NCBI GenBank assembly: GCA_947172415.1 | Contig: OX359202.1 | Location: 622,501 to 686,500, forward strand | Source of the DNA: Chondrosia reniformis | Lineage: Eukaryota > Porifera > Demospongiae > Chondrillida > Chondrillidae | Length of the DNA: 64,000 nucleotides | Reading direction: 5' to 3' | Part shown: positions 51,201-63,032 of the stretch, piece by piece | Layout: each line of letters begins with the position of its first letter | Numbering within the stretch: the first letter of the stretch is position 1 | Made by a program: the position numbers and the translations under genes | Notes under the pieces: model-generated | What the model was told of the DNA's origin: nothing | The model's input: only the letters and a program-made list of their open reading frames with translations | Databases searched by the model: none

Positions 51201-54200
51201 TTATGGTATATCAAAAGGGACGGGTACACGACCTTGTTGAGTCATGGCAGCCATCTTGAATCTCTTTCCCATTCTGTGATCGCTGGTCAACATCTCATAT
51301 GCACTGATGATAGATTTGGCCGGAACATTGCTGGTCTTGATCAACGCCTGTATATGTATTAATGTATACGTACATAATATAAAGAGTGCAAGTTACAATA
51401 TAATCTATAAGTATATATGTAGAAGTGGCACTCAAAACATTTGGTACCTCTATGATAAATTGGCAACATCATGTAAAATTATATTAAAATAACATTATTC
51501 TTTTGAGAGTGTCATATTAACATGATGGAGTGTGCGATTTTATAACACAAAATTGATGATAACCTGCTCACATAGAATTTATTGAAAAATATGACAATAT
51601 GTTGCAATATAAAATGTATGTGTGTATAAGTATACACACTGTATGGTATATGTACATACAGTACTGAAATATACATGTAGCATTCAAGAATACAGTACAT
51701 AATGTGTATTGTAATCTTAATTATGTACATATTCTATTATAAAATGAGAATGTTTTAGGTAGTTTGTAAACAATTGTTTGTAAACAACTATTTACTGTGT
51801 ACTTCTTTATTAGGGGTAAGCTACGTAACCGTTGGGCATGCAAGTGCAAGTTGAGTATGACAACATAATTACAGTAACAAAATATGTAGGGTATTCCCCA
51901 GGGGAAATCCAAAGACAGAATAACAAAATAGGGTATTCTCCAGGTGAAATCCAAAGACTCATAGTTAGTATAAAAGAGGGAAGTAAATCAATCCTCCAAA
52001 GTTAAGTCATACAGTCAACAAGATGTCACAAGAAGAAGGTAATGTACTTAAGTGAACTGAGACCAACTAAAAACTAGAAGGACCTAGGATCACTGATGAA
52101 CCTCTAGAAATAGCTGCCTGGCTCAGTGGAGAAGTATAAAGCATCCTCATCTAACCTTTACATCTTAATATTCTTTAAATGTATTTATCTTTAAGTTATA
52201 CGTATATTTACGAATGTAGTAGTATAGATAATTCAGTTGTCATGGATCCCTATTATAGGTATTGAAGGAACAGACCGTGGTACTGATCTGTACAGAGGAA
52301 ATAAGAGAGATCAGGTTGTACAGAGATCTGGAACAAACTGCTTCTTTTGCTCAACTACACTAAATAGGGTCAGAGGAGAGGTGGACCATCTCATCCCAGT
52401 TAGTCAAGGTGGAAGAACTACTCTTGATAATGGACAACTGGTCTGTTCCGGTTGCAACAGAAGTAAAGGATCCCAAACTCCATCACAATACTTCAAGCAA
52501 ATGGGACAGCCTGCCAAGTGTATTCAGTACACCGGTAAAGGGGGGGATGGACGCTGTGGGAAGTCTGTGGCCTCTGGGAAAGGCAATTACTGCAGCTCCC
52601 ACAAGAATTAACAACAAGCAAGCAAGAAGAGCAACAAAATGTATATTCAAGTTTCACTGACTTAGGTATATATACAGTATCCCATTTTACATTGGTTGCA
52701 GCAATATTTATCATTTTATAACAATTGGCACTAAAAATAACACACTGATTTCAATGTAATAGCTAAATGATAAAACTATACTATCCATACACTAAATATT
52801 ACATAGTGCACAAATCAGAGTTGAACAGTAACATTAGTGGGTCTTACATTAACACTTTTAAGAGTATAGTATAGTATAAGGGTATAGTATATTGAGTGGG
52901 TGGGGTAAAACCCAGAGTCAAATGATGCACATCATAGCTTTAAGATTGGCTTTAGATCTTGAAGTCCCTATTATTTTCATTTCAGTGATCAGCCACACTT
53001 TGGCTGTATCCCTTATCTGCTGATAAGGAAACCACAAGCTTTTTAGCTTTTGGAGTACTTATCAGGAGATAGCCACTCATTGTATGCCATACTGATGAGT
53101 CCTAATAAGGACGAAACAATTGTCTATTGCTTGACCATCTCTTTGAGCACCTAAGGGGAGACTCTGGTTTCCATCAAGTGAACTTTGGTTCCACCCTTTG
53201 CTCATTGTGCTCCTCAGGAGATATGAGTGAGTGGGGTAAATGACACAATATACCATTAAATTTAAGTATTCTCCCTCAAAGGATGTTTCAAGCTAAGTGA
53301 CTTTACAAATAGATGTACAAAAATAACTGCTGTAATTCATACTAGTTAGTTGAAGTACTTTGCTTCCTAGAACATGTGACCAGGCTGTTTACGCAGGTCT
53401 TTTACCATATTAGGTAATGTATCCCTGTTGGCATTCCTGGTAAAACAACTGTTATTTTAACCAATGGAAATGCATTTTTGTGGCCATTACACAAGCCCAG
53501 GGAAACGTTGCAATTTTCCCTGCCACTTTCAAATGATTTCTATAAAAGAAGGGAACGTTTCTAATGCACCATTACCTAACTTAAGAGCAAACAAGAAGAT
53601 GTCACTTGAACTGGAAGGTGGGGAACATTTTAATATGTCTCGTATAACTGATCTGTTCAGAGGAAATAAGAGAGATCAGGTCATAAAGAGATCTGGAACA
53701 CACTGCTTCTTTTGTGAAGCTCCCCTAGGTCAAAAAGTACAAGCTGATCATCTTATTCCTGTTGACAAAGGTGGTGAAACTACCCTGGAGAATGGACAGA
53801 TGATCTGTACTTCTTGCAACTTGAGCAAAGGAACAAAGATGCCCTCAGAATACTTTAAGAGTATTGGCTGGCCAAATGCCAAGTGCATCCGCTACACAGG
53901 CACTGGTAGAGATGGACGCTGTGGTCAGCCGGTCCCTTTTGGAAAAGGGGAATACTGCAGGAAACACAGAGCCTAATTCTGGATGTAGTCCAACCTTTAA
54001 GATTAACTACTGTACTGAGTTATAGGACACATAGAGTTTTGTACTTTGTTAAAAATAAAATTTACTCCACCATGTTAAGCTAACTGCTTCAGATTAATTA
54101 TGTGTTTGGTGTGAAGTCATCAGATTATATATCTAGTAATTTCATGAAAGAACGCTAATTTTATAAGTATAACTTAAGCATCACTTATGGCTGGTCTTGA

Positions 54201-63032: not shown

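Follow-up and report, generated by a model that had tools for sequence, protein, structure and literature searches.

Five HNH genes antisense to NDUFAF7

The window, a 64,000-nucleotide stretch of the sponge Chondrosia reniformis (C14:622501-686500; positions given without a contig are those of the window), contains five genes for HNH-domain proteins, H1 to H5, all on the plus strand and within the last intron of a minus-strand gene that we take to be NDUFAF7, a member of the Methyltransf_28 family. The penultimate NDUFAF7 exon (60282-60458) ends in phase 0 with GAT before the donor gtaagt, and the last exon (51201-51347), which holds the stop codon, is likewise in phase 0 and is preceded by cag, giving a predicted intron of 8,934 bp (51348-60281). 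The joined last two exons match PF02636 (Methyltransf_28) with an E-value of 2.4e-9, and a 107-residue query made from them matches just two places in the genome (117,379,552 bases in 15 contigs, the assembly covered by the genome searches), which are these two exons; a rival last exon, just left of 60282 or elsewhere, was therefore not found in the whole-genome search. The preliminary description had placed a nested tandem HNH cluster here and had named a different NDUFAF7 last exon left of 60282 as one finding that would speak against it. The matching splice phases, the Pfam matches and the genome-wide exon search bear out the placement, and the opposing exon was not found. It is very improbable that 60282 is not spliced to 51347 and that the HNH genes are intergenic: the splice is read from the DNA rather than from RNA-seq, and the intron is far longer than the gaps between neighbouring NDUFAF7 exons with both ends located (about 60 bp each), but the phases agree, the Pfam match runs over the joined exons, and the last exon has no second copy. 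No Rfam match was found in 51000-60600, on which ground both an RNA gene and a self-splicing intron were rejected here; the intron is of the spliceosomal GT-AG type with its HNH genes antisense, which differs from the sense-strand position in a self-splicing intron expected of a homing endonuclease. Upstream of the NDUFAF7 exons seen lies a G+A-rich minisatellite (61982-62630) that is open in several frames, and a short perfect-looking palindrome at 50615-50684, which includes CTCAATCCTCCCTTATCCGG, is possibly a small foldback element.

H1 (52023-52611) consists of exon 1 (52023-52038), a phase-1 intron (52039-52258) and exon 2 (52259-52611), and encodes an HNH domain with a C-terminal C3H motif, as does H2 (53599-53976), taken to be a single exon. 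From ATG to stop, H3 (55501-57162) is one open frame, with its HNH segment at about 56683-57057; its repeat at 55530-56609 may be coding or may lie within an intron, and since this repeat is open in other frames too, its openness is no evidence of coding. H4 (57611-58289), a recent duplicate of H3, is composed of exon 1 (57611-57645), which ends at an inferred donor, and exon 2 (57745-58289). H5 (58628-60169) has exon 1 at 58628-58640, a phase-1 intron at 58641-58703 and exon 2 at 58704-60169, the last encoding HNH and C3H motifs followed by a tail of 27-bp repeats. A tiny first coding exon followed by a phase-1 GT-AG intron is found in H1 and H5 and in one gene on another contig (C6a, below), and H4, given its inferred donor, can be read on the same plan. 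The tail arrays, which may be coding, have units of 12/18 bp in H3, 39 bp in H4 and 27 bp in H5, and codon positions are unbiased in the H5 array (22/19/22), which led us to reject it as constrained coding sequence. The short HNH proteins have no obvious signal peptide, and the N-terminus of H5 is basic and resembles a nuclear localization signal. Bacterial contamination was rejected, given the GT-AG introns and the location of the genes inside introns of NDUFAF7 and a second host gene on chromosome-size contigs. Between H2 and H3, outside the genes, lies a copy of a foldback element with 126-bp arms (54211-54978); the element is young, abundant and non-autonomous, about 760 bp long with 126-bp inverted arms, and its copies match at 92-100% among the 40 scored of 1155 genome candidates. 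Its start recurs at about 57247, upstream of H4.

Active site, zinc motifs and the wider family

The reading of the five genes as HNH paralogs holds, with all five domain segments exceeding the curated cut-offs of both PF01844 (HNH) and PF14279 (HNH_5). In the numbering of the H1 segment, residues C22, C25, D37, H38, N52, C57, C60 and N61 are invariant in all five, and a D-H/N/N active site and a [CxxC]2 (Cys4) zinc ribbon are kept in every window gene. Also invariant are C82, C94, C106 and H109, which make up a C-terminal C-x11-C-x11-C-x2-H (C3H) motif. These residues suggest that H1 to H5 are related DNA endonucleases of the HNN beta-beta-alpha-Me type that carry an extra C3H zinc motif and would bind metal and cut DNA. 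Six finger segments gave no Pfam match above the cut-off, and the C-terminal finger was thus rejected as a known Pfam domain, including the plant-type WRC motif, to which it bears a likeness, and other C3H fingers. A genome search with the C3H motif of H2 returned only H1 to H5, with more divergent forms in two of the HNH genes on other loci (C6b and the double-HNH gene).

At least eight HNH places exist in the genome, the same ones being found with PF14279 and PF01844 when all 12 candidates were scored genome-wide. A second HNH pair, C6a and C6b (C6:3347608-3350753, plus strand), lies in a 4,369-bp intron (C6:3347069-3351437, gtgagt...cag) whose removal preserves the reading frame; the host is a minus-strand gene that we take, from its exons, to be PLRG1. 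C6a ends before the C3H motif. At the remaining locus, C14:2298539, is a double-HNH gene with a degenerate first half that has lost the D-H pair; it sits among transposase-like open frames in a transposon-rich stretch, near what we take to be a piggyBac-like transposase frame (C14:2303423-2304949) and KDZ-like fragments. Downstream of this gene, and on its strand, is a DnaJ-like start. With five HNH domains in the NDUFAF7 intron and two in the PLRG1 intron, seven of the eight detected genome-wide are antisense in introns, as two independent clusters, although these could be chance landings. The nesting had been called unusual, a judgement that is supported and extended, because the C6a/C6b pair is likewise antisense in the intron of a different gene.

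Nine of the ten gene pairs in the window have dN/dS of 0.12-0.44, values that are rough because dS (1.0-2.8) is saturated. The exception is H3/H4, with dN 0.060, dS 0.049 and dN/dS 1.23 from few changes, and the upstream regions of these two genes are 98% identical over 190 bases. The older paralog pairs look constrained, and H3/H4 looks like the only recent pair. The preliminary description's "rapidly diversifying" family is thus apt for the repeat tails and for H3/H4 but not for the catalytic core or for the other nine pairs.

In a tree of 63 rows and 67 columns, which is weak given its few columns, long branches and midpoint rooting, the nine sponge rows all fall on one side of a branch with SH-aLRT 91. 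This is compatible with a single old acquisition or with an old eukaryotic family, but not with several recent transfers. Of 29 stretches from a scan of viral contigs, one held a relative, which matched over 38 residues and lay in a phage-like contig, and none of nine did so in a further scan made with H2; 379 phage records match, none of them covering 80% of H2. A viral or phage origin was rejected on these results. A literature search, with most subscription papers outside its reach, found no paper on an HNH family of sponges.

TATA boxes and kappaB-like words

The promoter-like sequence noted before each gene is confirmed, in the form of an exact TATAAAAGA ahead of H1 (51969-51977), H2 (53541-53549), H3 (55406-55414) and H4 (57516-57524) and of TTCTAAAAGA at H5 (TATA variant TTCTAAAAGAG, 58578-58588), all on the plus strand. 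The 64 kb holds five plus-strand copies of TATAAAAGA and no minus-strand copy, and four of the five are the H1 to H4 promoters. In a motif-free word count, the longest words shared by the upstream regions include TATAAAAGA (H1, H2, H3/4), GGATTTCCCC (H1, H5) and ATTCCCCAG (H1, H3/4). The upstream region of H1 has one place in the genome and that of H3 has two, the second being H4, and neither is a dispersed repeat. An alignment also shows that each of the five genes has a AGTTAACAAG-like word immediately ahead of its start codon (52010-52022, 53590-53598, 55465-55480, 57565-57585 and 58613-58627).

A kappaB-like word, by a motif that was defined after the sequences had been seen, is present on the plus strand between -160 and -60 in four of the five genes, H3 and H4 not being independent in this count: three sites in H1 (51889-51899, 51901-51910 and 51931-51941), GGGGATTCCCC in H3 (55380-55390) and in H4 (57482-57492), and GGGATTTCCCC in H5 (58542-58552). 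GGGGATTCCCC presumably resembles the kappaB site of the MHC class I enhancer. The word turns up in 0.63% of 100-bp stretches drawn at random from the window and not at all in 66 kb of other sequence from the same genome, and it is absent from the stretches looked at for H2 and for the three HNH genes outside the window. The window has four other kappaB-like occurrences, all from one repeat family; one repeat family carrying GGGGATTTCCC has four copies, at 13241, 20002, 26824 and 41823. Genome-wide, GGGGATTCCCC occurs 281 times, against nine for the reversed control, but it was rejected as a kappaB signal at that scale because many of its sites look exonic; TATAAAA is within 60 bp at only one of 30 GGGGATTCCCC loci, and the broad kappaB-like motif counted above occurs 16 times in the 84 kb flanking these 30. 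The genome has one Rel-domain (NF-kB) locus, on C10, with three matches. In published work, the kappaB preferences of sponge NF-kB on protein-binding arrays are much like those of other holozoan NF-kBs, sponge NF-kB pathway genes rise after microbial signals (PMC13042239), and NF-kB enters the nuclei of sponge cells that engulf symbionts (PMC13372038).

A possible inducible nuclease family and its relation to known systems

The reading that we favour, tentatively, is of a sponge HNH family that may well comprise NF-kB-inducible nickases acting on foreign or damaged DNA, a function suggested by sequence features. The genes would have arisen by tandem duplication on the strand opposite to NDUFAF7 and would be driven by TATA promoters of their own. 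In response to microbes or damage, a Rel/NF-kB homodimer would occupy the kappaB-like site, which precedes the TATA box by 15-27 bp, and initiation at the TATA box would yield a short protein acting inside the cell, where the zinc ribbon and the C3H motif would position the D-H/N/N site on DNA and the enzyme would nick or cut foreign (viral or bacterial) or damaged DNA. The term effector cluster, which the preliminary description had offered, is plausible given the conserved active site, the TATA and kappaB-like promoters and the presence of an NF-kB locus. As genes for putative DNA-cutting enzymes of bacterial type, with promoters like those of immune genes, H1 to H5 are therefore a possible animal counterpart of bacterial DNA-destroying defences. 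The wider proposal, of a restriction-like innate defence in an animal that uses NF-kB-switched bacterial-type HNH nucleases with a new DNA-reading C3H motif, kept antisense in housekeeping introns, is more doubtful, although still a distinct possibility. On this proposal the intron of a constantly expressed gene would hold chromatin open and would also let the nuclease gene travel with a host gene that cannot be lost.

The main rival to an inducible defence is a family of nuclear DNA-repair or structure-specific nucleases induced by stress rather than by infection, which we consider rather unlikely. It draws on the closest small solved relative by profile, Gmet_0936 of Geobacter metallireducens (PDB 4h9d, E 7.7e-18), which reportedly prefers abasic-site DNA and for which its authors propose a possible role in repair (PMC3765158). 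The HNH domain of the animal genome-stability enzyme ZRANB3 also matches (PDB 5mkw, E 3.8e-6), and the basic, NLS-like N-terminus of H5 would suit a nuclear role, but small size, tandem copies, unconstrained repeat tails and TATA promoters would be less typical of repair genes.

Decay of the family, with little present function and some copies being pseudogenes, appears unlikely: the kept catalytic and zinc residues of all five window copies, the dN/dS of the old pairs well below 1 and the kept TATA boxes argue against it, although the ratio of 1.23 for H3/H4, the absence of the C3H motif from C6a, the loss of the D-H site from the front half of the C14 double gene, the H5 array without codon-position bias (22/19/22) and the inferred splice needed by H4 all point towards it. 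The boldest rival is a nuclease of selfish or mobile-element origin, which would spread by cleaving sites that lack it, or by hitch-hiking, and would last where its insertion does the least damage. HNH is a common homing-nuclease domain, seven of the eight domains are antisense in spliceosomal introns of two unrelated genes and the eighth HNH gene is in a transposon-rich stretch; however, neither inverted repeats nor a target-site copy was demonstrated around the cluster, the sequences upstream of H1 and of H3/H4 are not dispersed ones, the family has only three loci, exon-intron structure is kept, the opposite strand and the spliceosomal introns differ from known homing introns, and two independent intron landings could be chance. 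We regard a selfish origin as improbable.

If H1 to H5 are active and induced by microbes, an early-branching animal living with dense bacteria would possess free-standing HNH DNases, and NF-kB signalling would be tied to DNA destruction. Their recurrence inside introns of housekeeping genes would then allow a test of how a nuclease gene that could do harm is retained. Otherwise they would still be an unusual animal HNH-C3H family.

Among known systems, PtuB (Septu), McrA-like and other anti-phage HNH nucleases match the sponge proteins by profile in the HNH core only (PtuB 1.1e-9 for H2), and whole-protein models of Cas9 and IscB fall far below their cut-offs (IscB 35 of 175 bits, Cas9d 44.5 of 375 bits). 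The sponge genes come with no partner domain or partner gene of the Septu, McrA-like or Cas9/IscB systems, and a match in the nuclease core says nothing about membership in anti-phage systems. The large helicase ZRANB3 carries NZF and PIP motifs, whereas the sponge proteins lack such domains and match only its HNH domain, weakly. Small bacterial HNH_5 proteins share the HNH core, with 32-48% identity over it in the 80 loci compared of 407 relatives, mostly from Alphaproteobacteria; the C3H pattern occurs in none of these 80 bacterial open reading frames and none of their matches extends past query residue 86. In Gmet_0936, zinc is held by Cys38/41/73/76, the active site is D53, H54, N68 and N77, and DNA is reportedly nicked weakly with Mn (PMC3765158). 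In a comparison made by hand, H1 has all zinc-ligand and active-site spacings equal to those of Gmet_0936. The bacterial protein comes from a single gene with no intron or TATA promoter, unlike the sponge cluster, and its matched part has no C-terminal C3H motif, whereas the sponge proteins carry one.
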